A DNA stretch of 58,173 nucleotides from a virus. Position numbers and translations under genes: made by a program. The DNA lies in IMG/VR virus record IMGVR_UViG_3300025141_000105, positions 1 through 58,173 of that record. The stretch is one strand, 5' to 3'. Within the stretch, counting starts at the first letter, position 1, and the number at the start of each line of letters is the position of its first letter. Shown here one piece after another: positions 7,121-37,288 of the stretch. A model generated the notes under the pieces. It saw nothing but the letters and a program-made list of their open reading frames with translations, ran no database searches and had not been told where the DNA came from.

Positions 7121-7160
7121 TAGTAACTACTTTGTAGAACTTTCTTAGTTTGTTTTTAAT

Positions 7161-7196: not shown

Positions 7197-7209
7197 TTAT
7201 AACAAAAGA

Positions 7210-9578: not shown

Positions 9579-9612
9579 TGGGGTAAAAGTATATAAAGTT
9601 TGGTATGAATAG
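9472..9612 (+). CDS. Small basic protein in an overlapping frame (46 aa)
   Basis: An ATG at 9472 opens 46 codons beginning MPKKRKLNSK and ending GVKVYKVWYE before TAG at 9610-9612. The end of the product looks like a folded beta strand rather than a random frame, and the stop overlaps the ATG of the next small gene at 9605 by 8 bases. It overlaps the gene at 9357-9578 in another frame. Function unknown. Confidence 0.5.
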   Translation: MPKKRKLNSKNPKYIDKSKLKEKVEKRKELACTTSNGVKVYKVWYE

Positions 9613-9709
9613 AGATAGACAAAATAAAGATTCAATGCTATTTTTAATAGTAGGTTATATAGGATTAGTTGCTTTAATAATAGGTTTAGTAATAGGAAGA
9701 TTAATATAA
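9605..9709 (+). CDS. Single-pass membrane peptide (34 aa)
   Basis: ATG at 9605, 34 codons, TAA at 9707-9709. A charged start (MNRDRQNKDS) is followed by one strongly hydrophobic segment with GY and GL turns and an Arg at the end. It is one of three small membrane proteins in a row (with 9357 and 9722). Function unknown. Confidence 0.55.
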   Translation: MNRDRQNKDSMLFLIVGYIGLVALIIGLVIGRLI

Positions 9710-9721
9710 ATAATATTTAAT

Positions 9722-9922
9722 ATGGATGAAATTATAAGTTTAAGTATTATTGCATTTGTTTTAGTGGTTGGTTTTATAATAGGAGCTATATTTGCTGTAA
9801 TTGTAAATGCAAAAGAAAATAAATCCTTGACAAAAGAGATTGATAAGTTTAGAGATTTATATTTTGAAGAAATGGATAAATGGAAAAATAAATATGATGA
9901 TGATGATTATGAAGCATATTAA
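9722..9922 (+). CDS. Small membrane protein with charged tail (66 aa)
   Basis: One N-terminal membrane segment (about residues 4-29, ISLSIIAFVLVVGFIIG-type) is followed by a charged coiled-coil-like tail ending in Asp repeats. An A-rich leader precedes the ATG. Its end overlaps the next gene in another frame. No family recognised. Confidence 0.65.
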   Translation: MDEIISLSIIAFVLVVGFIIGAIFAVIVNAKENKSLTKEIDKFRDLYFEEMDKWKNKYDDDDYEAY

Positions 9923-10052
9923 AGAAAAATTAATATATTTACTACATAGAATAGGATTTCATAATTCTAATTGTAGAAGAAGAATATATACTACAGAACA
10001 AGATTGTTTATGTTTAATAACGGGGAATACCCATAAAAAATTTCAATTATGA
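9909..10052 (+). CDS. Small Cys/His-containing protein (47 aa)
   Basis: I take the ATG at 9909 (MKHIKEKLIYLL), the last of several in-frame ATGs at 9894-9909. The protein has His and Cys residues (LHRIGFHNSNCRRR, then DCLCL) that could bind a metal. The stop overlaps the GroES-like gene (ATGA). Earlier in-frame starts would add a run of Met from the preceding gene. Function unknown. Confidence 0.5.
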   Translation: MKHIKEKLIYLLHRIGFHNSNCRRRIYTTEQDCLCLITGNTHKKFQL

Positions 10053-10309
10053 TAAAAGCAGTAGGGCTAAGAGTAATAATACGTCCAGATAAACCAGAAG
10101 AAGTAACAGATTCAGGAATTATATTAACCGAAGTATTGCCAGACATACCTGATAGAGGAATTGTAGTTTCCACAGGGAATAAAGTTAAGGAGCTTAAAGA
10201 AGGTGACTACGTTATATTTGATCCGATGGGGATAAATCCTATCACACATGATAACGAAGAATATTTTTTATTCTATGAGGCCCAAATATTAGCTAAAATA
10301 AAAGAATAA
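10049..10309 (+). CDS. GroES-like co-chaperonin
   Basis: 86 residues matching Cpn10/GroES: the start IKAVGLRVIIRPDKPEE, the mobile-loop region DSGIILTE (about 28-35), the RGIVVSTGNKV strand, and the VKELKEGDYVIFDP block followed by ILAKI at the C-terminus. No GroEL partner gene is visible, so it would cap the host GroEL, as phage co-chaperonins such as T4 gp31 do for capsid folding. It lies at the end of the early arm, near the late genes. Confidence 0.85.
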   Translation: MIKAVGLRVIIRPDKPEEVTDSGIILTEVLPDIPDRGIVVSTGNKVKELKEGDYVIFDPMGINPITHDNEEYFLFYEAQILAKIKE

Positions 10310-18950: not shown

Positions 18951-21900
18951 TTATCTTATTAATGAACTTGTTTCCTTTTCACCTTTTTCTCCTTTGTAAA
19001 AAATATTAGATATATCTTTTCTAACTTCAGCTAATGGGGCTACATCATGAAAAAGTGTTTTGATAGCCTGAGACTCGCCTTTCTCTCCATAAGCACTAGA
19101 TCTTTTGATTTTATCTCCTCTTATAGCTTCACCTATAGCTTTAGTAGAGTTTCTTAACGTACTATAAGAAGAGGGTTTTAATGTGTAATTTACAAATCTA
19201 TTCATATCTGTAGTAACAAATACATCATGAGAGAATTTCTTCATTGTTCTTAATGTGTTAGAATCAGTTTCATCATCATCTTCCATAAGGGCAATTAAAC
19301 TTAGTAAAGTAATACCTATACCTATTCCATTTAAATGATTAATAATTTCTTGTTTTCTTTGTGGGCTGGACTCATTAAATATATCCATAATATTTTTCTT
19401 TGTCATTTCGCCTGCAAAATACTTTCTAAATAAATTTACTACAAACTCACTAGAGGCTCTATAACTACCTATATTAACATTACCAAATCTATCTATATCT
19501 TCAGCTTTAAACCTATCTCTTAATGTGGTAATAAACCATTTTTTAAATTGCAGTAATGCTCTACCATAAGAATACATAGAAAGCATACTTGCATCTAAAG
19601 CTGTATATCCTTCTCCATGTAATGTAGATATCTTATGATTAATTTGCATTACCCTTTGATCGTCAATAGGATCAAGACCGTTATACTCTCTTTCTGTAAG
19701 TTCTCCTAAGAAAGCAGCTCCTTGTATATAACTCTCTGATCTATCCATAAAGTAATAAGACCATCTTTCTATTTTTCCATATAATCCTTTTCTTTCAGAT
19801 AAATGTATAAACTCATCAAAACTATACTCTACTATTCTGTGTTTTTTCAAAAGATCCCAAGACTTGTCTTTACCATCAATCCAATATCTTTTTTCTCCTA
19901 ATATAAATTGTTTACCACCACGCTTACGTAACTCTTGATATTTACCTGCTAGTATATTACCTACACCAATACCCATATTAAAACCAAGTAATCTTAATGA
20001 TGTTAGCCTAACAAAACTATCTATAATCTTGTCTCCTGTTTTACCAAAGACCCCTTCTTGCTGCTTCTTTTCTAAGAATCCTTCTTTCCACCATTTAGTT
20101 AAATAATCAACAGCTTTTTTATTATCTAAATTTTTATTAAACGATATAATAGAATCTGTAAGAACTGACATTTTATTCATACCACTAAAACCATCTGGAT
20201 TTTTCTGTAAATTCTCTCCATGCATAAATAGCGAGCTTCTTACAAACTCTAACATACCAGAATGTATATCATAACTAATAGTAGCAGCCTTAACACCTCT
20301 TCTTCTTTCATACTCTTGTATTAACTCTGCATCTATATTATTAATAGTATCACCATCGCCCATCATTCTTTTAAGTCTTGAGCCATTATTTATTAATGCA
20401 TCATATTCAGAGTCTGATAATAGTATATTAGAACCATCCATGTGTTTGCCTCTAGACTTCCAGTCTTTAGCTAACTTTCTTAATTTTTCTAATTCGTTTA
20501 TTTTCTTACCAGACTTTAAAGTAATATCTCCAGTTCTTCCTTTATATACATCATATTTCCACTCGTAAAAAGTTTTGTAAACTTTATCACCGTTTTGATC
20601 TGTACCCTTAACTTTAACTCTATTGTAATCACTAGAGTCTATTGTGGCGTTATATAAACCAAATAGTCCACTTCTAGACATTGATTCTATATTACCCATC
20701 TGCATACCTGGGACTATAACATCTTGTACGTTTAAAAGATCATTACCTATTTTTTTATATGCATTATAATAATTACGCTCTTCTTCAGTTAGTTCTTTTT
20801 GATTTATTTCTTCTTCACTTAATAATCTAATATTGCCATTTTCTAATGTAGCTATATTACCATAAATAAATTTATATCTTGCATCAACATCAAATCCTTT
20901 CCTCACTCTTTCTAAAATACTTAAACTTCTCATTTTTGATCTAATAAGTGATTTATTAGAACTCTCTATCATATTCTTGTATTTTGAAAAGGATCTTAAG
21001 TATTTTCTATATTCCTCTTGTACTTCGTTAATTAGATATTGTATCTCAGGTCTTTTAGATGTCATATCATTAGACCCTAACCATTTTTGGAAATTACTAA
21101 TATCTTCTTGTGCTACGCCATCAACTCCAGGAGTATTATATTCGTATCCTTGTCTAGCTCCTTTCTTTCTAAGTTTTTCAGATTGTATTCTAAACGCTCT
21201 TTGTCCTATTTCTTTCTCAATAGTATGAGCAATACCTTTAGTAGCTGAGTTGTCCATCTTTCTAAACTTAACTCCTAGCTCATACAAGTCATTTATTTCA
21301 TACTTAGACAAAGGCTTTCTTTCTAACTTAGCTTCAAACTCTTTAACTAATCTATACTGCTCTCTATATGTGTCGTATCTATTTCTTAGTATAGTAAATG
21401 TATCTGATTCTGGAGATATTTTAGACAAATCAATTCCTTTATCTCTAGCCCAAGTATCCATTTCTAACATTCTAACACCGCTACCTAAATAATCATTATT
21501 ATAAGATGTTTCAGAAGATATTATCTTTTTAGCTTTTCTTGTTGGGTCTACAAAAGAATTATCTAACTTAGAGGCTATGTCTACCTTATCTTCAGTAGAG
21601 TATTTCTGGTTTCCAGATATTATACCACCTAATCCAAGCATGCTTCTTGCGTCTGTATACTCTGTTGCAAGTGAACCTACTAAGTTTGCTTCTCTAGTTT
21701 GATTCTCTTCTATAATAGCAGACATAGACTTATTTATCTTTTCTATATATACATCGTCAAAGAAAGGTATAAAAGATCCAGCAGCACCAGCTCCTCCTGT
21801 AAGTCCAAATCCATTAAACTGCGCCTCTAATGCAAACACAAAATCTTTTTCAGTTTCAGTAAGTTGATTAAAGGATTCTTTTATTTGCTCTATAGCTTTA

Positions 21901-24900
21901 TAAGATGTAAACTCTGTAATCTCAGCTCTATTAATAACTACTTTGTTTCCTTTTTCATTAACCTCTATAATTCTATTTAAAAATTTATTCTCCTTATTAC
22001 GCCCTTGTAATAATTTAAACTCTTCTATTAGTGTAGGGTTGTCTTTTAGTGCATTAGGTTTTAAAAACTCAATTTTATTTTTTAAGTTGTTTATTATAAT
22101 TTGATTTATAATTTTTGGCTTAGTTAATTTATTTTTATTTAACTCTTCAAAAGTAGCATCATTAATAATATCTCTCATATACTGAGTATATCTTATATCA
22201 GTCCTTTGAGCTCTTTCTAATACACTATCAAATAATCCCATAGCGTGTTGCACAATACTATTACGTGAGCTAGCTCCTAATGTGTAAGATATGTTTAATC
22301 CACCAGCTTTAGCTTTTTCATTTATAATGACAGGACCAGCTTGTATTCTTGCTATATCATCTCTTATCTTTCTAAGTTCTAAAGGATTTTTTTCTATAGT
22401 TTGATGTACAGTAAACGCTTTAGAAAAAGGTCTTACTATATCTTGATTGTATTTGTTTAGGCCATATAACATTAGTATAGTGTCTATCTCTGCTTTAGCA
22501 TCTCCTTTAGATAATGCATTTAAATCTATTTCAATACCTTTTGTTATTCTGTCTGCTAACTTTTGCCAATTTTTTTCATTATAAAATCGCTTGTAAGCTT
22601 GTCCAGGCTTATTGCTTTTAGTTGTCAGTCCTTTTATACCTCTTTTTTCTAAGAACATAACTAACTCGTTAAAGTTTATAGTTTGATCTTCTAAAAACAT
22701 TTCTTTAATATCACTATCTTTTGATATATAGTTTTTACTTCTACTTCTTTTAAACTCCATATACTCTTTCACTATAGGAGAATTAAATAATACTGATAAA
22801 TCATTTAAGGAATACCCTAATCTTCTTAAAGTAACATAAGGAAATACACTTTGCATATCTATACCAAGCTTCCCAGCAAATTGATGTTTAGCGTTGTCTA
22901 ATGCTATATTAAGAAGCTGTGCTACACCAAACCAATTACCTACACCACCCTCTAATGTAGAATCATCAAAAAATTTGTCTTCTGTTTTATTATTAATCTT
23001 TATACTAAAAGGTAGTTTTTCTTCTGTGTTAGAAAATATATTAAACGTTCTTTGTAATGCTGCGATTATACCAACTAAGTTCTTTGCTGGTACATTGTCT
23101 TCAAACATTTGTGCATCACCCATAGGTGTAAGCTGTGATTCTTCTTGTTTAGCTTTAGAGCCATAAACACTTTCCGCTTTAGCAATAGCTGCCTTAGCAT
23201 CGTTTTCAAAGTTAATATCAGCTTTAATTTCAGCCTGTCTTTTAGGTTGGCTGATTAACTGTACATATTTATCAAAGAACTCATTAGAAAACTCTCTCCA
23301 TTCTTTACCTTTCTTTTTAACTTCTGCATTTGTCCATTTAAAATTCATGTGAACCGCATCTCCATCTAAATCGGCTCCCCAGTTTTTACTTACATGTGCG
23401 GGTATAGTTATATTAGATGTTGGTGAGTTTCCTATTTGCTCATGAAAATCTTTTACTACAAAAATAGAACTAGTTACCTTACCATGAGAAGGTACTCTTG
23501 TTCCAATAAACAAGTCTCCTTTTTTAACTCCTTGTTTTTGTAGGTATCCAGGAACAATAGCTTCTGAAGCAATTACATTTTCATCACCTTTAAATAAACC
23601 TTTTTTATAAGACTGTAATCCCATACCTAAACTTGCAGATTGATAAGCAATAGATCCTTTAGTGTACATCTTAGTGCCTTTGTGTGTTATACGTCCTGTT
23701 GCTATAGAGTTGTAAACTGCATTAACAAAAGGATATCTAGGGTCAACTTTAGGGAAAACAGAGTCTATTAATACACCAAAAATATCTGCGCTTACAGAAG
23801 ATTTAAATCCATCTCTCTCTTGTAACACCTGCTTTTCTGTAGCTGTATTATCTACAATAAGACCATTTTCTTCACCAGCTTTATTTCTAGAGTAATTATT
23901 TGCCTCCATTACTCTTTGTCTTAATATAAACATTTCCTCTATAATTTTCTGCTCTTCTTTAGTGTCTATATTTGTTGCTAGATTATAGAATAATTGAGAA
24001 GGGAAAAATCTTTCGCTTACTTGTTTATCTAATTCTAATTGTATGCCTAACCCTTCTCCTGATAATGCTTGATAGCCATTATCTCCTTTATATATCTCGT
24101 CTTGACTAGCCATTATTTGATCTATATTTTCAGATGTAGATATATCGTATACATATTTACTTCCTGTTTTACCAGAAGGTCCGTCAAAGAATAATTTAGC
24201 AGCAGATTCAGATGCAGCTATAACAAGATTACCTGGAGTCTTAGACATTTCTTGAACTTGTTCTTGTCTTTTTCTAAGCATATCCCCTATGTTTTTAAGA
24301 TAAGGACTTGTTGATTCTAGCTTAGGTGTTAATGTGTGTACAGCAAACTTTAAGTATGTTGTATTTCCTTTTAGCTTACCTTCTGTTTCTGTATAGTGAT
24401 ATACAAACTTAAATACATTACCTACCTTTTGTACCTCTCCATACTTAGCTCTAATGTATTTAGCTTGCTCAGGAAGAACATATCCCATTGCATCATTCTC
24501 AATAGCAGTACCTTCTTTTTCTTCAGTTCCTATATTATTATTTTCATCAACAAAATAATCTTTAATAATAATAGGTTCTATTTGTGTGTTTCTATCAAAT
24601 ACAATATGACTAGCTATTGACCCAGCAGCTCTTTTAATATAGTCTATTTGGTCTTTAGATTGTCTATGATCATGTACAAACAATTGTTGAGCCATAAACT
24701 TATTGGCAATATAAGATGTTAAAAAAGCATCTAAAGCAGCGTCTAAATTTTTAACCTCTTTTAAATCAGTATTACCTTTAAATAGCTCTGCATTTTTATT
24801 TGCATATTCTTTCCACCTTTCTATAATAGCAGGCATTTCTTTAATCTTGCCATTACTTATAGTGTATGGAAATATAGTGTATTTTAATTCAAGATTTTTT

Positions 24901-27900
24901 CTAAGATTTTTAGCTTTAGCTGGTGATATTTTTTCTTTTTTTATTTGTTCATTTAAAGACTTTAAAGCTTTTTCATAATTAAGATATTTAACCTTTTTCT
25001 TATATACAGGATTTTTTTCTATTTTAGAAAGCAATAACTTTTTCATTTTATCGTTATGAGCTATAATACTCTCTACATAGTACCTTCTACTTTTGTCAGA
25101 AAATACCGCAATAGCTTGATCATATATACCCATAGCTTCGTTACCAGCCATTAACTCATTGTATTTAGATAAGAAACTAAAGAAATCACCTGCTATTAAC
25201 TCACTAGGAGTTACGCTATTTAATTTTGATGCTCTACCCTCATATTTAACACCATCAGCTCTTGTAACTAATGTTCTCATCATTCCTGAGTGTATAGTAA
25301 AGTTAAAAGGATTATTTGTTACCTTACCTTCGCTATTAGCTAATACTCCAGCTTGCTTTTTTCTAAAAGCCATATCAGCATAAATATTATTATCAGGATG
25401 CATAACACTATCTGACTCTATAATAGTTTCATTGTTTATAATAGTTGCTACATTTTTAGCTCTATTATGTAAACCACTCTCTTTATTAAATATACTTATA
25501 CCATCTCCTTCTACATTATCTACCATAGATAAGTAGTTAATAGCCCTAGACGCTACAAGACCTTCTGTAAGTATTACTTTTAACTCACCTTGCTTGCCGT
25601 ATATTAGTCCTTTAGCCTGATACTTTCCTATTTCTACAGCAAACTTACCTTCTTTAGTAATACCCATTAAGGATTGATTGTTTAAATTAGGTTTGCCATT
25701 TTTAAATCTAGTATGACCAAAAAGTATCTGGCTTAATGTTTGCCTTTTATCTTTAAATAATATTCTTGCATTTAATAAAGCATCTTTGTCTATTAAAACT
25801 CCCTTGTTAGTATCGTCTAAAATTTCAGACAAAACTCTTTTGGCGGCAGTGTTTATATCATTCTCATCAAGAACTTCTTTGAATTTATTCTCTTTAGAAT
25901 CGTAAAATAAGTTGTCATATATTTTTGCTATTCTTTTCCCTTTAGCTGTATTTTCTTTGAGATTATTCATAACATCATTTATAACACCAGCCTCTAGAGT
26001 TTTACTCATGGTTTTATAAGTTCTCCATTTTCTAGCACCCATATATCCTATCTCTAACGCTTGTTGAGTTAAAACCTCTATATTAATACCTTCTATTGGA
26101 CCTTTAAGCTCCATTAACTTAGCATTAGTAAGAACTTTGTCTTTACCATAAACACCATCTAATACTCTTAGCATAGCCATAATCTCAGCACTATCAGACT
26201 TTCTTAATGTAGGGATAAAATCAAATGGATCATTCTGTGTACTTTTAGCTATAACATATAAATCATATAACAGCTTTTTTCTATTAATTATATTATCAGG
26301 ATTTTTAAAGTTATAAACTTCTGTAATCTTTTTTATAAAGTTAGATGTAGTTGTTGGTAGTGCAATTATCTTATTAGATTCTTTGTATTGATCTGACTCA
26401 GAAGCCTGATCCATATTTTCTTTTTCATTTAAATCTAATCCTATTTCAGAAAGTTGTTTGTCTAATACTTTATCAGCTAACTTTAAATCTGCAGGTCTAG
26501 TAATCTGAACTATAATAGCCTTTACGTATTCTCTTAACTGTTTAACATCTGTAACTTTTAAATTAGAGTCTTCTGCTATTCTTTTCATAACTCTATTAGT
26601 CATAACAGTAGGAGTTAAATTTCTACCTATAAAATCTCCTATATACATAGATACCGCTGAGTATGTAGCTCTAGATGCAAATGCTTTCTTATTAGCTCTT
26701 TTAATATCACCATAAGCAGAGTTTTGCACTACAGGTATAGTACGTTCTCCAGAATTAAAGTCTAGTAAGATGTGCTTAATAGAAGCCTCTAAGTCTAATG
26801 ACTGTATATTATCTACAGATAAATCTAAAAGTCTTTTAGCTTCTTCATCAGTGGCTAATTTCTTAGTCTTTTTATAAAACTCAATTAAATCTTTCTTTAA
26901 TAATTCTTGAGCTTCTGATCCTTTTACAATTGAATCAACCGTTCCTTTAGAATAAAGCTCTAACGTTCTAGTAAACGTCTCTTCAAGTAGATGTTTTTGT
27001 TGATCTACCCTAACATCTTTTATTCCTTGTAGTTTTAATTGTATTCTTAATTCATTAAAAAACTCTGTACTTTTTGCGCTATCACCTTGCCTTTCTGCTA
27101 ACGCTATATTTTCTGATATATTTGTAAGTATACCTTCTTCTCCTACAGGCTTATTAATTAATATATTTTTATAGATACTACCAAGAGTCATTTTATTACC
27201 GTTGTAATTCATAAGAATTAATTCAGGGTAATTTCTTTTTGTTCTTTGATATTCAGCAGACTTTGGTAAAAGCTTTTTAATTCTTTTCATTAATGGAGTG
27301 TCTTCCATTAAGCCGTAATACACATGTCCTAATTCGTGTATTAAATCAGTTTGTTCTACTTGATTCTCATTAATTAAAACAACAGAACCTATTGCTAAAG
27401 ATGTAGCTTCTTGCCCATAGTCGTCTGCTAGCTTAGATGATATTACATACCCACGTGCACCTGGGAATTGTTTTTGCACAATGCTTCTAGTTAATGCTGC
27501 TGCCCCTAATCCTGAGTGAGTATATACTTCAAGATTACGATTAATTAATATATCCTCTTGTGCAGGGATATTTTTAAAAGACTTATCAAGTAATTTTTTA
27601 AAACTTTCTTTTGTTTGCTTAACAGAACCTATTACCTTATCTATAGTGCGAGTATCTTTCTTTTTAGCTTTTTTAGTAGGGCCTTTTTGCCCTTCAAGAG
27701 TTTTTGATGTTTCTAATGGCGTTCCACTTTTTACATATTTTGCATATGAAGCGAACATTGATTTATAAGCAGTAGCATCCCCGCCAAACAATTTAGCTAT
27801 GTATTCATATAACTTATCTAAAATAGTAGAATCTTCTACTTTTATTTTATTTAAATAACCCATAAAAACAGGGTTCGTTAATGAATATGTAAGAAATTCA

Positions 27901-30900
27901 TGTATATTATCAACCGCTTTAAACCTAGATCTTGAGGATTTTGATTGAGATAAATATATACTATACAGCCCTTCTACTTCATTTATAAATTGAGTTTCTT
28001 CTTTTGATAAATACTTTAATGCTTGCGGAGCCTTTTTCTTTATTTCTAGCAAATTCATTGTTGTTGCATGTATAGTTTCATGCATTATAACTTCAGCAAA
28101 AACAGAATCATAAGACCTTTCTGTCTTTTCTGCAAACTTCTTTATGTTTTCTTTGCTAAATGATATAGTATATATAACACCTCCTTTATTGTCTTGTTTT
28201 TTATTAGTATTTCCTAACACTGTTTGGTCAGCTCCTTTTACATGCCCATCTTTAATAACAAGATCTAAAAATGCCTTTTTATTAAGGCCTAATAAAACCC
28301 TTGCTATATTTCTAAAATATGATTTATCTGACTCTTCAGCAATTCTTTTTAATAAATTACCTATAGTGTCAGACTCTACATCAATAAATTTACTATCTAC
28401 AATACCTTTATCTTTTTTATATTCTTGATATTCTAACTGACCAATAACCTTGTCTCCTACAATAACTTGAATTTTACTTTCGTATAATGGAGCGCCTTTT
28501 TGATGTTGAAAGTATAGCTTACCATTTACTTCAACTACATCAGCCTTACCAGCTACTGGCTCTACTAAATTTAACTTTATGTTTTGTGGTGTTTTTGTTA
28601 GAGCCTCTGCTCCAAAAGGTTTAGATGTAAAAAACTTAATAACTTTTCCTGTAGCTGTTTTTAACATATAGCTAGTAGTACTTGCTTTACCTTCTTTATC
28701 TACTACCTTAGATATACTTGCAGCTTCTAACTGTATCCCTTTCTTTTTAAGAGTTTCTTCTGTTTTACTGTACTCTTCTGTTTTAGGAACTACTTGAGGT
28801 TGGTCTTTTTTTTTTACGTCTTCGTCAGACTCTTGTTTCTTTTCTTCAGCAGCTTCTACTGTTTCTTTCTTAGCCTTTTTAAATTTCTCTATGGCTTCTT
28901 TTACGTCTTTATTGTTAATGATTTTATCTACACCACTACCAATAATTTTTAAAGCAGCCTTCACTCCTATTTTACCAGCCTCTAAAGCTTTAACTAATTT
29001 TTCTTTAGCAGAAGGAGTTATTTCTTCTTTAGTATATTTTTTAACGTCTTCTATAGCTTTTTTAGTTTCTTCTGATGTAACTTTATCTTTAGCTTTACCA
29101 AATAAACTTTTAGCTCCTTCTACAGCTTTACCTCCTAATTCTTTAGCTCCTTCTACAACTTTAGAAATAAGAGAGGGTTCTGCATCTGCTTTCTTTTTAG
29201 CTTCCGCTTCCGCTTTTTTAGACTCTTCTTGAGAGTATATTTTCATTTCATCTTTAGTAAGACCTTGAACTTTATATCTAGCATCTCTTTTACCTGTAGA
29301 TTCCGCTATAGGAGCCTTGTCTACTCTTAAAGTGTATATGTCTTCTATCTCCCTATTTAAAACAGCCATATCTTGGTCTAATGTTTCCATTATAGATAAA
29401 TGATTTTGCTCTAAAATTTCTAGCGCTTTCTTTTGTTTTTTATCATTTTTTATATTTTCAACAATATGTGCTTTATCTGTTTCGTATGCAGCTTTTTGTA
29501 TTGCTTGTTGAGATAAATTTCTAGACTTTCTTGTTTCTCTAAAGAAGGCTTGTTTTGCACCAGCTTCTGTTAACATACTATTAGCAGAATGTTTTAGATA
29601 ATTTTTTTCTGATGCCTCTATAGCTACTATAAATTCGTCAGCTACCTCTCTAGACATTTTTTTATCCTTAACCATATTTTCAGCATACTCATACAAAAAA
29701 GATCCATCACCCTTGTAGTTCCATATGTTTATAGCCATAGTATTATCAGTAACCATAGCTTCGGCTGCATAATACTGTTCAGGTGTTTTAGCCGCATCTA
29801 ATATTTTAGCATTAGTATTAATAGCTTCTTGATGCTCATCAAGAGCAGCGTGTCTTGCAGCAGCTGAATCAAAATAACCTCTAGCGCCACCCATAGCCCC
29901 TCCTAAACCTACAGAAGACCAAAATAAATCTCTAATTTCTGGTCTATAGTTTCCGTAATCATCTTTTACCCAATCAGTCATAGATAAATGATCTTCACCC
30001 TTAGCCTCTTGTATGTTTTTATATTTTATCCATTCTTGATATGTTTCTTGAATCCCTTCTGTTATCCCCTCAACACTTGCATAAGCTCCTGCTGCAGGTA
30101 AATTAGGCAATACTTTTCTTACAGCATAAGAGGTAAGTCCTTTTATGCTAGCTTTAAATGGATTTGATTTTAGAGGGTTTAGTAATAATCTTTTAGCCAT
30201 ATTTTTACCTATACCACCAAATAGTAATCCATATTGAACCATATCAACTGCCATCCATTTAGCATTATCATACATTACACCAGCTGCATGATTAGCCGCC
30301 TCTTCTGGAGTAAATAATTTATTTCCATTAGCATCTACCTCGTGTAACATTTCTGAATATGCTTCTCCAGAAAGATAAGCTCCTTCTGCCATATTCGCAG
30401 CAGCACCCCCTCCAATAAAACCACCAACATTACGCATAAGTTTAGTTTGTCCATATCCTAATCTCCCAGCGTCAGTGGCTAATTTCCCTAACAAACCAGT
30501 TCCTTTTACTGCATTAGCCCCCATTCCTATACCTCCACCCATAGCTCCAACATTAACACCTATCTTACCTGCTTTATTAGCTTTAGAAATACCTTTAGCA
30601 GACCACACTCCAAATCTACCTAATAATGAAGCCCCTGCTTTAGCACCTCCTCCGTAAGGTATAACAAATGACATAGCGTAAGGAACTAATCTAGATATTT
30701 TAGAAGACCAAAATTCTCCTTTAAACATATCTTGAAAAGTAATATCTTTTAAATCTTCAGAAAGAATTAATGCATTTTCATTTTGATATTCTGTACCTAT
30801 CTTTTGAAACCATTCGCCAACAGAAGTAGATGGCTCTACATCTCCTGGTCTAGCCCAAGCATTAATAAAATCTACTGTCTCACCAGTACCGTATAATAAA

Positions 30901-31253
30901 TCACCCCAACCTGCTTTTAATCCTCTTTCTACTCTCTCTCCAGTAGAGCCTATCATTGATGTAGGGTCTACTATTTGTTGATCAGGAGCAGAACCATACT
31001 TTAATTCATCTAACTTACCATACTCATCAGCAGCTAACTGTGAAGCAGCTTGACCTTGAGCCATTCTATCAAAAGTTATATTTTGTTGCCCTGAGCTATC
31101 TAGCCCTTGTATCATTGAGCTTAATGTAGATGGTCCCTCCATAGGAGCATCATATTGTTGATTGATTGCTTCTTCTGGACTAGGTACTCTTACATCGTTT
31201 TTTGCTAAATCACCTAACAACATATTTAATCCTGATCTATAGTCTTCTGCCAT
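18951..31253 (-). CDS. Giant virion protein: two-barrel RNA polymerase with two zincin motifs (4100 aa)
   Basis: One uninterrupted frame of 4100 residues. The catalytic signature is DLDGD at 2628-2632 inside VSKNWGADLDGDAVHMNF, matching the NADFDGD metal-binding loop of multisubunit RNA polymerase beta-prime. About 45 residues upstream, GTRVPSHGKVTSSIFVV matches the preceding barrel strand. Such polymerases are known in crAss-like phages, where they are virion-packaged and ejected. Other parts: hydrophobic Gly/Ala-rich region (about 190-400), Lys/Glu linker (about 670-830), HETIH (1058-1062) with EFLTYSLTNP downstream, HELGH (1306-1310) with LLEETF downstream, and ~1470 residues after the active site. 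Promoter choice and substrates are not shown. Confidence 0.88.
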   Translation of the reverse strand: MAEDYRSGLNMLLGDLAKNDVRVPSPEEAINQQYDAPMEGPSTLSSMIQGLDSSGQQNITFDRMAQGQAASQLAADEYGKLDELKYGSAPDQQIVDPTSMIGSTGERVERGLKAGWGDLLYGTGETVDFINAWARPGDVEPSTSVGEWFQKIGTEYQNENALILSEDLKDITFQDMFKGEFWSSKISRLVPYAMSFVIPYGGGAKAGASLLGRFGVWSAKGISKANKAGKIGVNVGAMGGGIGMGANAVKGTGLLGKLATDAGRLGYGQTKLMRNVGGFIGGGAAANMAEGAYLSGEAYSEMLHEVDANGNKLFTPEEAANHAAGVMYDNAKWMAVDMVQYGLLFGGIGKNMAKRLLLNPLKSNPFKASIKGLTSYAVRKVLPNLPAAGAYASVEGITEGIQETYQEWIKYKNIQEAKGEDHLSMTDWVKDDYGNYRPEIRDLFWSSVGLGGAMGGARGYFDSAAARHAALDEHQEAINTNAKILDAAKTPEQYYAAEAMVTDNTMAINIWNYKGDGSFLYEYAENMVKDKKMSREVADEFIVAIEASEKNYLKHSANSMLTEAGAKQAFFRETRKSRNLSQQAIQKAAYETDKAHIVENIKNDKKQKKALEILEQNHLSIMETLDQDMAVLNREIEDIYTLRVDKAPIAESTGKRDARYKVQGLTKDEMKIYSQEESKKAEAEAKKKADAEPSLISKVVEGAKELGGKAVEGAKSLFGKAKDKVTSEETKKAIEDVKKYTKEEITPSAKEKLVKALEAGKIGVKAALKIIGSGVDKIINNKDVKEAIEKFKKAKKETVEAAEEKKQESDEDVKKKDQPQVVPKTEEYSKTEETLKKKGIQLEAASISKVVDKEGKASTTSYMLKTATGKVIKFFTSKPFGAEALTKTPQNIKLNLVEPVAGKADVVEVNGKLYFQHQKGAPLYESKIQVIVGDKVIGQLEYQEYKKDKGIVDSKFIDVESDTIGNLLKRIAEESDKSYFRNIARVLLGLNKKAFLDLVIKDGHVKGADQTVLGNTNKKQDNKGGVIYTISFSKENIKKFAEKTERSYDSVFAEVIMHETIHATTMNLLEIKKKAPQALKYLSKEETQFINEVEGLYSIYLSQSKSSRSRFKAVDNIHEFLTYSLTNPVFMGYLNKIKVEDSTILDKLYEYIAKLFGGDATAYKSMFASYAKYVKSGTPLETSKTLEGQKGPTKKAKKKDTRTIDKVIGSVKQTKESFKKLLDKSFKNIPAQEDILINRNLEVYTHSGLGAAALTRSIVQKQFPGARGYVISSKLADDYGQEATSLAIGSVVLINENQVEQTDLIHELGHVYYGLMEDTPLMKRIKKLLPKSAEYQRTKRNYPELILMNYNGNKMTLGSIYKNILINKPVGEEGILTNISENIALAERQGDSAKSTEFFNELRIQLKLQGIKDVRVDQQKHLLEETFTRTLELYSKGTVDSIVKGSEAQELLKKDLIEFYKKTKKLATDEEAKRLLDLSVDNIQSLDLEASIKHILLDFNSGERTIPVVQNSAYGDIKRANKKAFASRATYSAVSMYIGDFIGRNLTPTVMTNRVMKRIAEDSNLKVTDVKQLREYVKAIIVQITRPADLKLADKVLDKQLSEIGLDLNEKENMDQASESDQYKESNKIIALPTTTSNFIKKITEVYNFKNPDNIINRKKLLYDLYVIAKSTQNDPFDFIPTLRKSDSAEIMAMLRVLDGVYGKDKVLTNAKLMELKGPIEGINIEVLTQQALEIGYMGARKWRTYKTMSKTLEAGVINDVMNNLKENTAKGKRIAKIYDNLFYDSKENKFKEVLDENDINTAAKRVLSEILDDTNKGVLIDKDALLNARILFKDKRQTLSQILFGHTRFKNGKPNLNNQSLMGITKEGKFAVEIGKYQAKGLIYGKQGELKVILTEGLVASRAINYLSMVDNVEGDGISIFNKESGLHNRAKNVATIINNETIIESDSVMHPDNNIYADMAFRKKQAGVLANSEGKVTNNPFNFTIHSGMMRTLVTRADGVKYEGRASKLNSVTPSELIAGDFFSFLSKYNELMAGNEAMGIYDQAIAVFSDKSRRYYVESIIAHNDKMKKLLLSKIEKNPVYKKKVKYLNYEKALKSLNEQIKKEKISPAKAKNLRKNLELKYTIFPYTISNGKIKEMPAIIERWKEYANKNAELFKGNTDLKEVKNLDAALDAFLTSYIANKFMAQQLFVHDHRQSKDQIDYIKRAAGSIASHIVFDRNTQIEPIIIKDYFVDENNNIGTEEKEGTAIENDAMGYVLPEQAKYIRAKYGEVQKVGNVFKFVYHYTETEGKLKGNTTYLKFAVHTLTPKLESTSPYLKNIGDMLRKRQEQVQEMSKTPGNLVIAASESAAKLFFDGPSGKTGSKYVYDISTSENIDQIMASQDEIYKGDNGYQALSGEGLGIQLELDKQVSERFFPSQLFYNLATNIDTKEEQKIIEEMFILRQRVMEANNYSRNKAGEENGLIVDNTATEKQVLQERDGFKSSVSADIFGVLIDSVFPKVDPRYPFVNAVYNSIATGRITHKGTKMYTKGSIAYQSASLGMGLQSYKKGLFKGDENVIASEAIVPGYLQKQGVKKGDLFIGTRVPSHGKVTSSIFVVKDFHEQIGNSPTSNITIPAHVSKNWGADLDGDAVHMNFKWTNAEVKKKGKEWREFSNEFFDKYVQLISQPKRQAEIKADINFENDAKAAIAKAESVYGSKAKQEESQLTPMGDAQMFEDNVPAKNLVGIIAALQRTFNIFSNTEEKLPFSIKINNKTEDKFFDDSTLEGGVGNWFGVAQLLNIALDNAKHQFAGKLGIDMQSVFPYVTLRRLGYSLNDLSVLFNSPIVKEYMEFKRSRSKNYISKDSDIKEMFLEDQTINFNELVMFLEKRGIKGLTTKSNKPGQAYKRFYNEKNWQKLADRITKGIEIDLNALSKGDAKAEIDTILMLYGLNKYNQDIVRPFSKAFTVHQTIEKNPLELRKIRDDIARIQAGPVIINEKAKAGGLNISYTLGASSRNSIVQHAMGLFDSVLERAQRTDIRYTQYMRDIINDATFEELNKNKLTKPKIINQIIINNLKNKIEFLKPNALKDNPTLIEEFKLLQGRNKENKFLNRIIEVNEKGNKVVINRAEITEFTSYKAIEQIKESFNQLTETEKDFVFALEAQFNGFGLTGGAGAAGSFIPFFDDVYIEKINKSMSAIIEENQTREANLVGSLATEYTDARSMLGLGGIISGNQKYSTEDKVDIASKLDNSFVDPTRKAKKIISSETSYNNDYLGSGVRMLEMDTWARDKGIDLSKISPESDTFTILRNRYDTYREQYRLVKEFEAKLERKPLSKYEINDLYELGVKFRKMDNSATKGIAHTIEKEIGQRAFRIQSEKLRKKGARQGYEYNTPGVDGVAQEDISNFQKWLGSNDMTSKRPEIQYLINEVQEEYRKYLRSFSKYKNMIESSNKSLIRSKMRSLSILERVRKGFDVDARYKFIYGNIATLENGNIRLLSEEEINQKELTEEERNYYNAYKKIGNDLLNVQDVIVPGMQMGNIESMSRSGLFGLYNATIDSSDYNRVKVKGTDQNGDKVYKTFYEWKYDVYKGRTGDITLKSGKKINELEKLRKLAKDWKSRGKHMDGSNILLSDSEYDALINNGSRLKRMMGDGDTINNIDAELIQEYERRRGVKAATISYDIHSGMLEFVRSSLFMHGENLQKNPDGFSGMNKMSVLTDSIISFNKNLDNKKAVDYLTKWWKEGFLEKKQQEGVFGKTGDKIIDSFVRLTSLRLLGFNMGIGVGNILAGKYQELRKRGGKQFILGEKRYWIDGKDKSWDLLKKHRIVEYSFDEFIHLSERKGLYGKIERWSYYFMDRSESYIQGAAFLGELTEREYNGLDPIDDQRVMQINHKISTLHGEGYTALDASMLSMYSYGRALLQFKKWFITTLRDRFKAEDIDRFGNVNIGSYRASSEFVVNLFRKYFAGEMTKKNIMDIFNESSPQRKQEIINHLNGIGIGITLLSLIALMEDDDETDSNTLRTMKKFSHDVFVTTDMNRFVNYTLKPSSYSTLRNSTKAIGEAIRGDKIKRSSAYGEKGESQAIKTLFHDVAPLAEVRKDISNIFYKGEKGEKETSSLIR

Positions 31254-31254
31254 A

Positions 31255-33273
31255 CTAATTTTGGTATTGTGATATTTGTTTGCTTAATTTTCTGCTTTGC
31301 TTGTATCTATTTTCAGGCATTATACCTTGACTATATACATCATAGTTACCCTCTTGTATTGCTTTTAACATATCTAGTACTCCTGGGCTTCCATTAATTA
31401 ATCCTTTCTTAAGAACTTGTGTAGATAAAGCCATATATTCAGAAGAGTTTCTTGCTACTTTATCTCCAATTTGTACTGGATACTCTCTTTCTTGACGCGA
31501 ATCTACGTATAAATCTGACATTAACAAAGGAATAGCTTTCTGAATTTTTGCTGAAGGAACATTAGCCATACCTAATCCTATTGATAAAGATTGGTCATAA
31601 GCGCCTATAAATTCATCTACAGCAGGAGCGGAAGGTAAATTCATTTGTTTTTGTAATATAGCATTGCTAGACGCTCTTCTTTTATTGTTATATGTTTTTT
31701 GAGCTAAACTTTGCTCGTATGTTGCCATTTGAGTTTTAACCCTATTTAAATCTGTAGAATCTATCTTTTCATTTAAAGCTGCTTGAATTGTAGGGTCTCC
31801 CATGTCTACTTTCTTATAATAAGCATCATCATGACTTACCATGTCATCGTCTATAAGCTCTGCAACAACAACATAATCAAAAACAGTATCTTTGTATTGT
31901 TCTCTTAATTTATTCATATCTGCCTCATTAGAAACGTCTGTAAGTAAGAATGCATCACCATCTTTATTCTTACCTTCTAAAGCAATATGATATCCAGTTA
32001 ATCTTAAGTCATCTGTTTCTGATTCTTGCCATGAGCCCGCACCTGTTAACCAAGTAGATGCTATATCGCTGTCTGTAATCTTATGTCCTCTTGAATCATA
32101 CAAACCTTGCATGGCTATATCGTTTACTTGACGTGATTTAGAGTTATACCTAGATGATTTAGCTTCATCTCCATAATCGCCAGCCCAAGATTGTGTTATA
32201 GCATTTTCAAGCATTTGATTATTAGCAAATACTCTACCACTACCAACCATTTGTCTTCCTTTAGCAAAAGGTGCTCTTATGCCTTTGTAGTTTTTCATTT
32301 CGTTATTCTTGTCATAGCCTCCTAATCTATCCCAATCCATAGCAGCTGTTCCGTCAAATAATTCTTTAAATGATATGCCTTGATCTCTGTTTCTAAAATA
32401 ATCACTACCCTTAGCGATACCAGTGCTTCCTACAGCATCTAATGACCTAACCATTTCTGTAGCAAACTCTGTATCAATTTCTTTAACACCATATATACCT
32501 TTATCATTAAAGAATCCAGAACCCTCATCATAGCGTAATTCTTTACCTACCCACGTTCTAATGTCCTCTTGACTTAATGATTGCATAAATGCTTGTGGAT
32601 CATCAGGATTTTGATCATTAATCATGTCCTTTATAATGGCCTGATAATTACTTCCTATAACCTCATCTAAGTCTAATTGGTCTGACATGCTTAATGCTTG
32701 ACTAGCTTGATCTAAATAATCTGATCTTAATCCGTGGAATACAAAGTTATCAGTTTCATTTTTTATAAACTGCTCGTATCTTTCACTTTGGCCTGACGTA
32801 ATAAATTGTTGATTTTTTGGATCTAAAGCTGCTATATGATATTTTTCTAAAGAAGCTTTATTTTGTTTAATTCTATTAGATATTGGATTGTCTTTTAAAT
32901 TAGCTTTATACTCTTCCATTAAATAATCTAAATTACCATTTAGCCTAGCGTTGTCTATAGAGCCATGTTCTCTTAATACATCTTGTATGTTTTTCCATCC
33001 AGATAAGTCTGTGTGCCAATTCGTAAAATCATCTACATCTTTTTGTCTTGCAAATCCATTATCAGTGTATATATCTTTTAATGCTTGGTTTGTAGCTGCT
33101 GATAATTGTTGTTGATATGCTTGGTCTCTATTTAGCTCTTGTAATTGTTGATTTTTAATTTGTTGCTGTTGTTGCATTTGCTGCATTGCCCTAGCATCAC
33201 GATTTGCTTGGATATCTCCAGCTGCCTTCATTGGGCCTGTTAAAGCATCAAAAAATCCATAATCTATTCCCAT
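31255..33273 (-). CDS. Probable ejected internal virion protein (672 aa)
   Basis: 672 residues, soluble, Gln/Asp-rich and largely helical. The first 70 residues contain a Gln-rich stretch (MQQMQQQQQIKNQQLQELN) predicted as coiled coil. It lies one base from the giant polymerase gene and two bases from the lysozyme-domain gene, the place where crAss-like and other podoviruses encode capsid cargo proteins that leave with the DNA. No enzymatic motif recognised; the role is inferred from position, size and composition. Confidence 0.6.
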   Translation of the reverse strand: MGIDYGFFDALTGPMKAAGDIQANRDARAMQQMQQQQQIKNQQLQELNRDQAYQQQLSAATNQALKDIYTDNGFARQKDVDDFTNWHTDLSGWKNIQDVLREHGSIDNARLNGNLDYLMEEYKANLKDNPISNRIKQNKASLEKYHIAALDPKNQQFITSGQSERYEQFIKNETDNFVFHGLRSDYLDQASQALSMSDQLDLDEVIGSNYQAIIKDMINDQNPDDPQAFMQSLSQEDIRTWVGKELRYDEGSGFFNDKGIYGVKEIDTEFATEMVRSLDAVGSTGIAKGSDYFRNRDQGISFKELFDGTAAMDWDRLGGYDKNNEMKNYKGIRAPFAKGRQMVGSGRVFANNQMLENAITQSWAGDYGDEAKSSRYNSKSRQVNDIAMQGLYDSRGHKITDSDIASTWLTGAGSWQESETDDLRLTGYHIALEGKNKDGDAFLLTDVSNEADMNKLREQYKDTVFDYVVVAELIDDDMVSHDDAYYKKVDMGDPTIQAALNEKIDSTDLNRVKTQMATYEQSLAQKTYNNKRRASSNAILQKQMNLPSAPAVDEFIGAYDQSLSIGLGMANVPSAKIQKAIPLLMSDLYVDSRQEREYPVQIGDKVARNSSEYMALSTQVLKKGLINGSPGVLDMLKAIQEGNYDVYSQGIMPENRYKQSRKLSKQISQYQN

Positions 33274-33275: not shown

Positions 33276-35237
33276 TTATTTGTTATCTGTTCCTGTGTTC
33301 CCCTGGTTACTCATTAATCCTTCTATTGTATTGTAAAGATTGCTTGTATTGTTTCTGTTTAAAAGAGAGCTGCCGCTTCCTCCAAATCCAGACATAAGGT
33401 TTGTAAATGCAGCTGATGTAAATGTAGCTGCTGCTTTCTTATTAGCTACCTGTCTTTCCATGTCTTCAGCTCTTTCTTTTTCTGTTTGTTGTATATCAAA
33501 ATTCTCTTTAAACATCATAAGCTTTTCATACTTCTCTTGATTCTTTGATTGTAGTTCAGAATCTTTAGCAGCATAATCTAATAATGCAGACGATCTTTGA
33601 GCGTCTAATATACCAGAAGACGCTAAGAACCTTGCTCTTTGACCTCCAGAACCTCTAACTGCATTCTCTAATCCTTTTTGATAAGCACCATCCATTTCTT
33701 TTTGAATCACCCTAGCTTGATCAGGATGAAATCCTTTCTTAGCAATCTCTCTACTTTGTCTAAGATGCTGCATAAACATAGGTGATAGTTGTGCGCTTGC
33801 ATGAGGCTTTACTTCTTTCATAGCCTCTTTCAATCCTTTCTTACCCATCACGTAAGATATAATACCTCCTGGACCTCCAACGTAATCTAACACTTTACCA
33901 GCACCTTCAAATAATGCTTTACCAGCATTACCTAGTTGATTCATTCTATAGTTAGAATCAATTGTAGAGTCTTCTGTTTCTGTTATAGCATCTTCTTCTT
34001 CTGCTGATGGTTCTACAACATCTTCTGTAGTAGTTTCAACTACTGGAGTTTCTATTATCTGTGTTTGATCAGTATTTTCATCAACAACATTATAAACAAT
34101 ATCCTCTTCCTTATCATCACTTAAAGAGCTTGGTAGTATAGGTGTTGTTTTACTTTCTTCTATATCTATAGTGCCATCAGGTAGCAAAATGTTTTGATTA
34201 TACCCTTGTTGTACTGGGCTAATATCATAATCCCTCCAGTCTTGTTTAGTTAATAATTTTACTCTATTACCACTTTCCTCTTTTTCTTTTCTTGCTTTTG
34301 CTATTTGATTTATTAAATCTTGTGGTGGTTCTTCTTTAGCGTCAATATATCCTTTTAGTTCTTTTTCTAATCTGGATTGTTCTTCTCTTGCATTGTTTTC
34401 TGAATTAACATAATTGTTTAATTCTTTTTTATACAAATCTTCTTTAAGTATGTTTTCTTTCTTTGTAAGATCTTTTATTAATTCATTTTTTCTTTTTGCA
34501 AGGTCATTATATTCTTTTGTTCCCTTACTAAAAGACTTTAAGTTTTTTTCTATAATACTTAATTCTTTAAAAGCATCTTGATTATCTTCTAAGTATTTTA
34601 AGTATTCGTCTCTACCAGATATTCTATCTAAAACATCTTTTCTGTATTTCTTTTTACTTGTCTCTTTAGATTCTCCCTCTACCTTAATCTCTGGCAATAG
34701 ACCAGGCATCTCTTCTTCTTCTTTTTCTCTATAAGGACTTTTACCTTCTTCTGCTAATTCTTGCTCTTCTTTGGTTGGAGCTTTTTCAGTAACAATTATT
34801 TCGTCATTATCCTCGTTAAAGCTAATTATATTTAAATTATCAATTCTTTTTTGTATTGCCTTTGAAGATTGATCCTTAGGATTTTCAAAGTTTTTCATAA
34901 AATCCTCTGTAGCTGCCGCTTTATCTTTATAGCTTTTATTAAGGTAAGCCTGTCCTTCTGGTTCTGATAAAGCAAAATCTATTTGTCCCTTCCAATTTGT
35001 TTTCCAATCAGGCACCGCTTCTAAAAACGCTTTTTTTCTTGTTTTGTATGTATGTTGAAAAAGACCTATGCCTTTATTTTTTACATCTCCCATTTCAACT
35101 GCATCAGAATAAAAAAGTGATTCAGTTTGTATATTGGCAATAATTCCCAAGGCTTTGTTCTTGGTCATATTAGGTTTAGTCATTAAATAATTATAAACCT
35201 CTTTTATTGATACTTTATTTTTTCCTGGTAATGCCAT
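33276..35237 (-). CDS. Ejected virion protein with N-terminal lysozyme-like domain (653 aa)
   Basis: I choose the ATG at 35237 (MALPGKNKVS), which overlaps the upstream stop as TAATG; an in-frame ATG at 35261 would add 8 residues inside the preceding gene. Residues about 5-140 match the phage tail-lysozyme pattern: NKALGIIANIQTESLF, then GIGLFQHTYKTRKKAF and WKGQIDFALSE, with Glu in IQTES as the likely catalytic acid. A long Lys/Glu coiled-coil region (about 190-340), an acidic linker and a Gly-rich membrane-prone segment follow. It probably opens peptidoglycan during DNA entry. Confidence 0.75.
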   Translation of the reverse strand: MALPGKNKVSIKEVYNYLMTKPNMTKNKALGIIANIQTESLFYSDAVEMGDVKNKGIGLFQHTYKTRKKAFLEAVPDWKTNWKGQIDFALSEPEGQAYLNKSYKDKAAATEDFMKNFENPKDQSSKAIQKRIDNLNIISFNEDNDEIIVTEKAPTKEEQELAEEGKSPYREKEEEEMPGLLPEIKVEGESKETSKKKYRKDVLDRISGRDEYLKYLEDNQDAFKELSIIEKNLKSFSKGTKEYNDLAKRKNELIKDLTKKENILKEDLYKKELNNYVNSENNAREEQSRLEKELKGYIDAKEEPPQDLINQIAKARKEKEESGNRVKLLTKQDWRDYDISPVQQGYNQNILLPDGTIDIEESKTTPILPSSLSDDKEEDIVYNVVDENTDQTQIIETPVVETTTEDVVEPSAEEEDAITETEDSTIDSNYRMNQLGNAGKALFEGAGKVLDYVGGPGGIISYVMGKKGLKEAMKEVKPHASAQLSPMFMQHLRQSREIAKKGFHPDQARVIQKEMDGAYQKGLENAVRGSGGQRARFLASSGILDAQRSSALLDYAAKDSELQSKNQEKYEKLMMFKENFDIQQTEKERAEDMERQVANKKAAATFTSAAFTNLMSGFGGSGSSLLNRNNTSNLYNTIEGLMSNQGNTGTDNK

Positions 35238-37288
35238 TATGCCATTCCGTTTGATTCCCACTTCTTCATATTATTGTAGGCTGTCATAGCTATCTCTCTA
35301 TCAGTCATAGTTGGTTTAAATTGATCTGTTGCATGATCATATACACCAGCACCTTTCTTAACTTTAAATTTAAGCTTACCACCTTTAGCGTAGATGTTAC
35401 CTTCTTTATCTACAGGCATTGGATTCCCACCATGTGTTTCAGGTCCAGGCGTTATTAATCTTTGGCTCATTGCTCTTCTAATTGGAGCAGCAGCAGCTCT
35501 ATAGTTTCCAGCTTCTAAAGCTTTTTCTACTTTAGCTTGGTCATTAACAATTAATTCATTGCCTGTAAATTCAGCAACAATATCTTCTGTTTTTCCTCCT
35601 GCATAATATTTATACTTCATTCCTTGTGCAGCGTAATCTGTTTCTTCTAAAACATTTTCAGCTAAAAAATCGCTTTCTTTAAATCCTGTCCAGTCACCTG
35701 AAACAAGATTCTTTTTAGTTTTATTTCCAGGGTTTATGGTTGGGCCTTTAATATTTGACATTACTTGCTCGCCACCTCTTACTGGTAATTGTGAAACAGC
35801 TTGTCTTTTTTGATCATAACCTTTAAAATTTTCAGGCATTGCAAAAGTTGGACCTTCATTACCACCTCCTCCAAATAAACCTTCTATAAAATTTATACCT
35901 TCTTGTGCTAGATACCCTAATGGACTTAAAATTCCTTCTCCTAACGGCATAAGGTAATCAAACCCTAAAGTTTTTACACCATCTAACGTGCCTTCAATTA
36001 CATTTCCAAACATGTCAGTAGCACCTTCCATTATAGGCTCTGCAACATCATGGATTCCTTCCATTACTGGATCAATAACATTACCAGCTGCATCAAAAAC
36101 TGGATCTAAAACAGGAACAACAATATCGCTCACCCCACTTCCTATATCACTTGCAACATCTCCAGCTCCTTGAAGTGCGTCTATACCAGTGCTTACAGCT
36201 GTATCAATACCTCCAGTTACAACATCACCAACACCTCCAACAACATCAGACACAACACCACCAACACCTCCAACAATATCAGATAGAACGTTTAATGGAT
36301 TACCATATCCGTATTCATGTAGTCCTGTATTGGGATTTATAGTTCCGCTACCACCTAAAGATTTTAGCAAAGCAGCTTCTTGTGGGTTTATATGAGCTAG
36401 CATAGTATCACCATTTCTACCAGCTTTAGCTATTTTATTTAATTCTTGTGGAGAAAACTTCATTCCTTCAGCAGCCATATATCTATTGCTGTAGTTTCCT
36501 CCGTATTGATTTGAGTATTGTGATTGTGTGTCCATATGCATTTGTTGATTATATTTTGCTAATTGTTCGTCTCTATAATCTTCTACTATATCTGCTCTTT
36601 CTTCGTATTGTTTAGTTTGCTCATCTCCTATTTCTCTCGCTACTTTTTCATTTGCTCTTCTAGCTTTCTTCTTTCTTCTTTTATTATTCCACCAAGAAAA
36701 TGCCAATGCTGCTAACATAACATAAGGGTTTACACCTCCTGCTCCTAATTTCATAGCAGACCCTCCAGCAAATTTACCTGTAAGAAATTTAGATGCCTGA
36801 TGTGCAGCCATCATATTAGATGCTGTACCTCCCCATTTTTCTTGATCTGTAAAGGTATAAGGATTGTTGTCTGTACCAAATGCACTATATACTGCAGCTG
36901 CAGGGGCTAAGTTAAAGCTTTGCATAGAAGCGTTCATACTTGCTGGATTAGTAGCATTTACTATTCCTGTTCCTACGTCTGCGAGATATGGACTAACCTT
37001 ATCAGCTATTGTATATGCTTGCAACCCCTTAGCTCCTTTCATTAATAATTGATCTTGACCAGATAAACCGCTTGTTAAATCAGAATACATTTGCCTTTCA
37101 TCTTGTATAGGGGCTGCTTGATTAGCTAAGTCTCTATAACTAAAATCTGTATATGCTCTTGATGAATAAGGATTAACTCCTCCAGTTTTAATATTAGTAA
37201 GATTATTTCCTTTATTGGCAAAGTTAGGAGTTATACCAGTTCCTTGTAACTGCTCCATTGCTTTCATTATATTTTGATATCCTGACAT
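35237..37288 (-). CDS. Ejected membrane-active virion protein (683 aa)
   Basis: 683 residues. One hydrophobic segment (VNPYVMLAALAFSWW, about 190-205) is followed by a very basic KKKARRANEK stretch. Residues about 330-480 form a striking Gly/Val/Asp-rich amphipathic series (IVGGVGGVVSDVVGGVGDVV and onward), as in membrane-disrupting or channel-forming peptides. DTMLAHINPQEAALLKSLGG (about 298-317) looks like a conserved folded motif. Together with the next two genes it likely forms the ejection channel or cargo. No enzyme motif. Confidence 0.65.
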   Translation of the reverse strand: MSGYQNIMKAMEQLQGTGITPNFANKGNNLTNIKTGGVNPYSSRAYTDFSYRDLANQAAPIQDERQMYSDLTSGLSGQDQLLMKGAKGLQAYTIADKVSPYLADVGTGIVNATNPASMNASMQSFNLAPAAAVYSAFGTDNNPYTFTDQEKWGGTASNMMAAHQASKFLTGKFAGGSAMKLGAGGVNPYVMLAALAFSWWNNKRRKKKARRANEKVAREIGDEQTKQYEERADIVEDYRDEQLAKYNQQMHMDTQSQYSNQYGGNYSNRYMAAEGMKFSPQELNKIAKAGRNGDTMLAHINPQEAALLKSLGGSGTINPNTGLHEYGYGNPLNVLSDIVGGVGGVVSDVVGGVGDVVTGGIDTAVSTGIDALQGAGDVASDIGSGVSDIVVPVLDPVFDAAGNVIDPVMEGIHDVAEPIMEGATDMFGNVIEGTLDGVKTLGFDYLMPLGEGILSPLGYLAQEGINFIEGLFGGGGNEGPTFAMPENFKGYDQKRQAVSQLPVRGGEQVMSNIKGPTINPGNKTKKNLVSGDWTGFKESDFLAENVLEETDYAAQGMKYKYYAGGKTEDIVAEFTGNELIVNDQAKVEKALEAGNYRAAAAPIRRAMSQRLITPGPETHGGNPMPVDKEGNIYAKGGKLKFKVKKGAGVYDHATDQFKPTMTDREIAMTAYNNMKKWESNGMA

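Follow-up and report, generated by a model that had tools for sequence, protein, structure and literature searches.

A 4100-residue phage protein as a probable virion-delivered two-barrel RNA polymerase in an unclassified lineage related to crAss-like phages

Introduction

What kind of enzyme would a phage build as a single chain of 4100 residues, and when in infection would that enzyme act? The question is raised by an open reading frame in IMG/VR record IMGVR_UViG_3300025141_000105 (58,173 bases, positions 1 to 58,173, analyzed as a whole and here called the window). A first-pass annotation, made from the sequence letters, had read the product as a virion-type two-barrel RNA polymerase (RNAP) of the crAss-like single-chain class, with protease-like and membrane-prone parts, and had named the virion RNAP (vRNAP) of phage N4 as the only functional parallel of similar size. 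Here we describe the domains of this protein, its relatives and its gene neighborhood, and weigh the functions that they suggest.

Results

The minus-strand frame was indeed open for 4100 codons from an ATG, and DLDGD was found at residues 2628-2632, preceded by GTRVPSHGK at residues 2584-2592, as annotated earlier (Table 1). D-x-DGD occurred once in the chain, compared with 0.06 occurrences expected from composition. Scans of viral contigs yielded about 25 contigs related by the giant protein, which was complete in 16 relatives (3698-4094 aa), and DxDGD was kept in 22/22 aligned relatives, down to 22% identity, amid the best-conserved stretch. L034 (2771-13648), a distant and truncated relative at 22% identity, carried DHDGD and could represent a second related clade. 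A single scan of bacterial and archaeal genomes yielded no relative. The length of the chain, described at first as unusual, is close to that of its complete relatives and, by annotated coordinates, to that of Carjivirus gp44 (4070 aa), the crAss002 RNAP (4245 aa), cr1_1 (4551 aa) and Fpv3 gp32 (4287 aa); RNAPs of crAss-like phages reach ~6000 aa according to a review (PMC10136315). The supposed membrane-prone character was weak, as a Kyte-Doolittle scan exceeded 1.6 at residues 3970-3988 only and the N terminus was merely Gly/Ala-rich.

Table 1. Features of the giant protein, its gene neighborhood and the control regions of relatives
Feature	Position	Strand	Basis or remark
Giant protein, predicted RNAP, 4100 aa	18951..31253	(-)	Open frame from ATG; ~25 related contigs
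N-terminal region, residues 1-945	28419..31253	(-)	Without known homologue; conserved in family
Insert zincin, residues 946-1189, HETIH 1058-1062	27687..28418	(-)	Sequence comparison
Conserved zincin-like region, residues 1194-1520, HELGH 1306-1310, E1425	26694..27674	(-)	Motif, conservation, local model
Two-barrel RNAP core, residues 2180-2840	22734..24716	(-)	Profile alignment and AlphaFold2 model
Predicted catalytic DLDGD, residues 2628-2632	23358..23372	(-)	Motif, profile alignment, conservation
C-terminal domain, residues 3708-4080	19014..20132	(-)	Profile homology to RNAP-associated subunit
672-aa protein, next upstream of RNAP	31255..33273	(-)	Position only; probable internal virion protein
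661-aa protein, phage tail lysozyme domain	33276..35261	(-)	Domain search, PF18013, E = 9.4e-17
2289-aa virion protein, phi14:2 gp82 homologue	37297..44166	(-)	phrog_28748
Major capsid protein (MCP), crAss-like	50125..51612	(-)	Sequence comparison
Portal protein, crAss-like, ~30% identity	52765..55068	(-)	Sequence comparison
Terminase large subunit (TerL), crAss-like	55073..56887	(-)	Sequence comparison and tree
Early-type gene block: DnaB-like helicase, Rad52, exonuclease, Cpn10	364..10309	(+)	Presumed RNAP target; role inferred
Divergent control regions of relatives	L061:3640-4327; L063:4408-5130; L066:4109-4699; L067 around 2564-2676 (minus)		Outside window

Direct searches with the giant protein in Pfam, PHROGs, NCBIfam and PDB sequences gave nothing significant, nor did tblastn of residues 1201-4100 against phage records; a family profile (A4) had no match among PDB sequences, and a four-sequence profile (A1) had none to the phi14:2 RNAP alone. 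Since direct searches were blank, profiles were needed for identification of the RNAP, and a query profile of 22 family members (residues 1900-3080) was compared with a target profile of six Crassvirales RNAPs. The core (~2180-2840) was collinear with the crAss RNAP profile (probability 98.7, E = 1.6e-16, 602 columns), while probabilities for reversed and 8 column-shuffled templates were <=0.2%. Query pieces 2140-2570, 2570-2680 and 2660-3080 also matched separately and in the correct order (E = 2.8e-5, 1.1e-7 and 1.3e-8, respectively), and in the profile alignment DLDGD paired with DFDID of the phi14:2 RNAP.

An AlphaFold2 model of residues 1900-3080 (mean pLDDT 71.6, pTM 0.70) retrieved 6VR4, the phi14:2 virion RNAP, as the top Foldseek match (E = 1.4e-18, probability 1.00; next match, 0.17). 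With VIA-align, the model was superimposed on residues 540-1813 of 6VR4 over 830 aligned residues (Z = 15.4, rmsd 4.2), followed by QDE-1 (Z = 11.7), plant RDR2 (11.4) and P23-45 gp96 (9.8). The phi14:2 virion RNAP goes by the names gp66 (structural paper), gp077/AGO48955 (KC821624) and PDB 6VR4. Because of the matches of the predicted structure to 6VR4 and QDE-1, a double-psi-barrel fold is predicted around residues 2500-2700, where the first reading had expected one, and the order of the pieces together with the 6VR4 alignment places both barrels in one polypeptide, collinear with the phi14:2 RNAP. Sequence searches of the giant protein detected no T7-like single-subunit polymerase domain (N4 type); the two-barrel fold was found instead. 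The assignment to the crAss-like class of single-chain two-barrel RNAPs was thus borne out by profile-profile alignment with controls and by predicted structure.

The C-terminal domain (residues 3708-4080) matched the C termini of phi14:2 gp76 and crAss001 gp49 (probability 99, E = 4.8e-18; reversed and shuffled controls, 0.1) and was also homologous to the ends of Carjivirus gp44 and the crAss002 RNAP. An RNAP-associated subunit of the gp76/gp49 type therefore accompanies the RNAP here as a C-terminal fusion; in phi14:2 and crAss001 it is encoded by the next gene, and in Carjivirus it is fused, as in the window. Residues 1-945, 1194-2140 and 2860-3690 had no detectable match to crAss proteins, and a homologue of phi14:2 gp78 sought for the N terminus was not found (probability 5). 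The order of domains is N-terminal region, zincin(s), helical linker, DLDGD core and RNAP-associated subunit.

Protease-like parts had also been announced, and the chain holds two HExxH motifs, HETIH at 1058 and HELGH at 1306. The first lies in an insert (residues 946-1189) that is unique to the window's copy and absent from every relative, even from one that is 91% identical overall. This insert zincin matched the zincin of phi14:2 gp76 (E = 4e-8), N4-like virion RNAPs (4e-7), a structural protein of bajarodcaudo virus 1 (3e-5) and a DarB-like protein (4e-5), with HExxH present in all aligned homologues, and a profile from this alignment found Fpv3 gp32 (E = 4e-8) and Carjivirus gp45 (1.4e-6). 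In Fpv3 gp32 the match falls within the RNAP-bearing chain, C-terminal to the polymerase. Matches in phi14:2, N4-like phages, Fpv3 and Carjivirus therefore point to one zincin type whose position in or beside virion RNAPs varies; a scan of viral contigs for relatives of the insert found none. Polyvalent proteins with a zincin-like MPTase are described as multidomain proteins of mobile elements with an HExxH zincin and a downstream glutamate (PMC5512222), and the insert aligns with the zincins of N4-like vRNAP and the DarB-like protein.

The second motif is a conserved feature of the family: HExGH (1306) was kept in all close relatives, upstream of the RNAP core (EELGH in L034), and E1425 was invariant in the family alignment. 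In the predicted model, two strands precede the helix that carries HELGH, and E1425 sits on a helix further along the chain, an arrangement of residues 1194-1520 that fits a zincin core. A fold search with a model of residues 1194-2010 gave no reliable match, so that the assignment of a zincin at 1306 is based on motif and local secondary structure.

The giant gene lies inside a late structural block on the minus strand, and the presumed early genes are on the plus strand. Three proteins of intermediate size are encoded upstream of the RNAP gene, and one of them has a phage lysozyme domain; the 672-aa protein had no match in family libraries. Just downstream of the RNAP gene, two adjacent small proteins (18160-18525 and 18548-18922, minus strand) share a common pattern and the ending ...YGKWDHVELNSGSC and look like a tandem gene duplication. 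The early block also encodes a GroES-like co-chaperonin, Cpn10 (10049-10309, plus strand; PF00166, E = 2.9e-16), and a protein with a DnaA C-terminal helix-turn-helix domain (6358-6801, plus strand; PF08299, E = 5.4e-14). Tape-measure PHROG matches of a 683-aa protein, which could have been read as a sign of a long tail, were attributed to composition. TerL, portal and MCP were homologous to their Crassvirales counterparts at about 24-32% identity. In a TerL tree with long branches, a midpoint root, two truncated rows and several Crassvirales families left out, the window's clade stood apart from the sampled Crassvirales and Fipvunavirus (99/98). The phage is related to gut crAss-like phages and belongs to an unclassified lineage with genomes of about 65-67 kb.

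TerL was 82-93% identical to that of the window in eight relatives, whereas the giant protein was mostly 40-65% identical, a contrast that agrees with published observations of rapid divergence among crAss RNAPs (PMC7886860). Relatives of 65-68 kb had the gene order of the window, but their contigs ended at different places and included an additional stretch of about 7 kb. One of them, contig G007 (68.4 kb), carried a DnaB-helicase region at both ends (L069:1-3075 and L070:10304-13400; 76% identity), which may be explained by duplication or by chimeric assembly.

The extra ~7 kb of the relatives, missing from the window, takes in the divergent region between early and late genes. In four relatives TATATTTAGCTG occurred twice in this region, in the same direction, 110-113 bp apart and facing the early genes, together with conserved blocks TTGATAATCAATCAGTTATTGTTT and one TTGACATTGTCAAGT-like block, and the TATATTTAGCTG pair with its surroundings is a candidate early promoter or operator. 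The TAnnTTTA core of TATATTTAGCTG resembles the Bacteroidetes -7 element, so that TATATTTAGCTG may also be a host promoter. TATTTAGCTG was rejected as a promoter, as inside genes (e.g., window position 4183) it appears to be coding (Tyr-Leu-Ala-Val, common to relatives); its count in the window was not above chance (15 compared with 11 expected), and neither was that of TATTTACTATT.

Discussion

The combined evidence from sequence, models and analogy indicates, with a probability of about 85%, that the giant protein is a virion-delivered, multidomain ("polyvalent") single-chain two-barrel DNA-dependent RNAP of the crAss-like type. The virion label derives from gene order and from the phi14:2 homologues annotated from tandem mass spectrometry (MS/MS): the RNAP (gp77) and gp76 of phi14:2 are annotated as detected in particles by MS/MS, and their neighbors likewise. 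The position in the late block beside a lysozyme-domain protein, and an insert zincin common to virion-delivered proteins including N4-like vRNAP, also speak for this reading. By analogy, the protein would be synthesized late in infection and packed alongside neighboring internal proteins, the lysozyme among them; it would leave the particle partly unfolded, through the tail and with the DNA, and would refold in the host and transcribe the divergent early block ahead of any phage protein synthesis. The steps from packaging to early transcription have been published for phi14:2 (PMC7886860) and reviewed for Crassvirales (PMC10136315). The zincins, in turn, may process the giant chain, and such cuts would free or activate the polymerase.

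For this last step, an alternative with somewhat less than even odds is that the zincins do not process the chain, acting instead on host proteins after injection or serving a structural role. Each of these roles has been suggested for domains of this kind in polyvalent proteins. Self-processing of the giant chain is not assured, since N4 vRNAP also has a related zincin and yet enters the particle unprocessed (PMC5512222). The insert zincin is, moreover, absent from all relatives and therefore dispensable for the RNAP in general. Against this, the occurrence of such zincins in or beside virion RNAPs of several lineages suits a task tied to the RNAP. More speculatively, and in our estimate doubtful, one zincin module could have been placed repeatedly, at differing positions, in or beside virion-delivered RNAPs of two unrelated classes (two-barrel crAss-like and T7-like N4) because giant virion polymerases are delivered as self-cleaving polyproteins; since the 91%-identical relative lacks it, the window's copy would be a recent gain (or the relatives would have lost theirs).

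It is improbable that the two-barrel RNAP is not packaged but is made during infection and serves later gene classes. P23-45 gp64 provides a precedent for two-barrel RNAPs outside the virion (PMC10770324), but the gene of the window lies within a late structural block, the phi14:2 RNAP and gp76 are annotated as virion proteins (MS/MS), as is Fpv3 gp32 (virion structural protein), and the chain bears the zincin type of virion-delivered proteins. Hardly credible is an RNAP fold kept in an inactive state within an internal virion or ejection-channel protein, as might be proposed because the RNAP core is the smaller part of a chain that is conserved elsewhere as well, given that DxDGD persists in every aligned relative within the best-conserved stretch and that the crAss RNAP subunit is retained alongside the DxDGD core.

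If the protein is indeed a virion-delivered RNAP, virion-type two-barrel RNAPs are also present in a separate lineage whose genomes are ~66 kb long. The RNAP core and the gp76-like subunit suggest themselves as a stable unit around which zincins shift, and proteolysis within the chain is a testable idea for the passage through a narrow tail and the activation of a 4000-residue enzyme. The compact divergent control region of the relatives, with a repeated motif facing early genes, could aid in finding the poorly known promoters of such polymerases.

Relation to known polymerases

Giant single-chain RNAPs of the crAss type are already known (Carjivirus gp44, crAss002, cr1_1 and Fpv3 gp32), and with the tape-measure RNAP of P23-45 (5002 aa) they show that N4 vRNAP is not the sole parallel in size. 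New are the lineage, the combination of domains, the conserved HExGH domain upstream of the RNAP and the zincin confined to the window's copy.

The phi14:2 system shares the two-barrel single-chain core (collinear over ~600 columns), the domain at the C terminus of gp76, a gp76 zincin that matches the insert zincin, and the place of the RNAP gene in the late structural block; it differs in that separate genes encode RNAP (2180 aa) and gp76 (1421 aa), in DFDID instead of DLDGD, and in the lack of a match found to the conserved 1306 region or to residues 1-945 and 2860-3690. In Carjivirus communis (p-crAssphage), gp44 has RNAP core and then gp76-like subunit in one chain, as here, and the crAss002 RNAP is a comparable case, but the zincin is in a separate neighboring gene (gp45), the motif is DFDVD, the sequence is very divergent, and the genome measures 97 kb compared with ~66 kb in the window's lineage. 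Flavobacterium phage Fpv3 (Fipvunavirus) also has a long chain, gp32, with an RNAP region (tblastn with the phi14:2 RNAP) and the same zincin type, although the zincin follows the RNAP (HEVIH 4065, DYDID 3116) and the gp76-like subunit is separate (gp33). P23-45 gp96, a virion RNAP fused to a tape measure protein and containing a metallopeptidase domain (PMC10770324), likewise places a two-barrel RNAP in a giant virion protein; its RNAP is, however, N-terminal, clamp-less and joined to a long-tail tape measure. Finally, N4-like (Schitoviridae) vRNAPs resemble the protein of the window as giant ejected RNAPs with a zincin homologous to its insert (C1 domain, PMC12633501), whereas the polymerase itself is of the T7-like single-subunit class, which is unrelated (PMC5512222).
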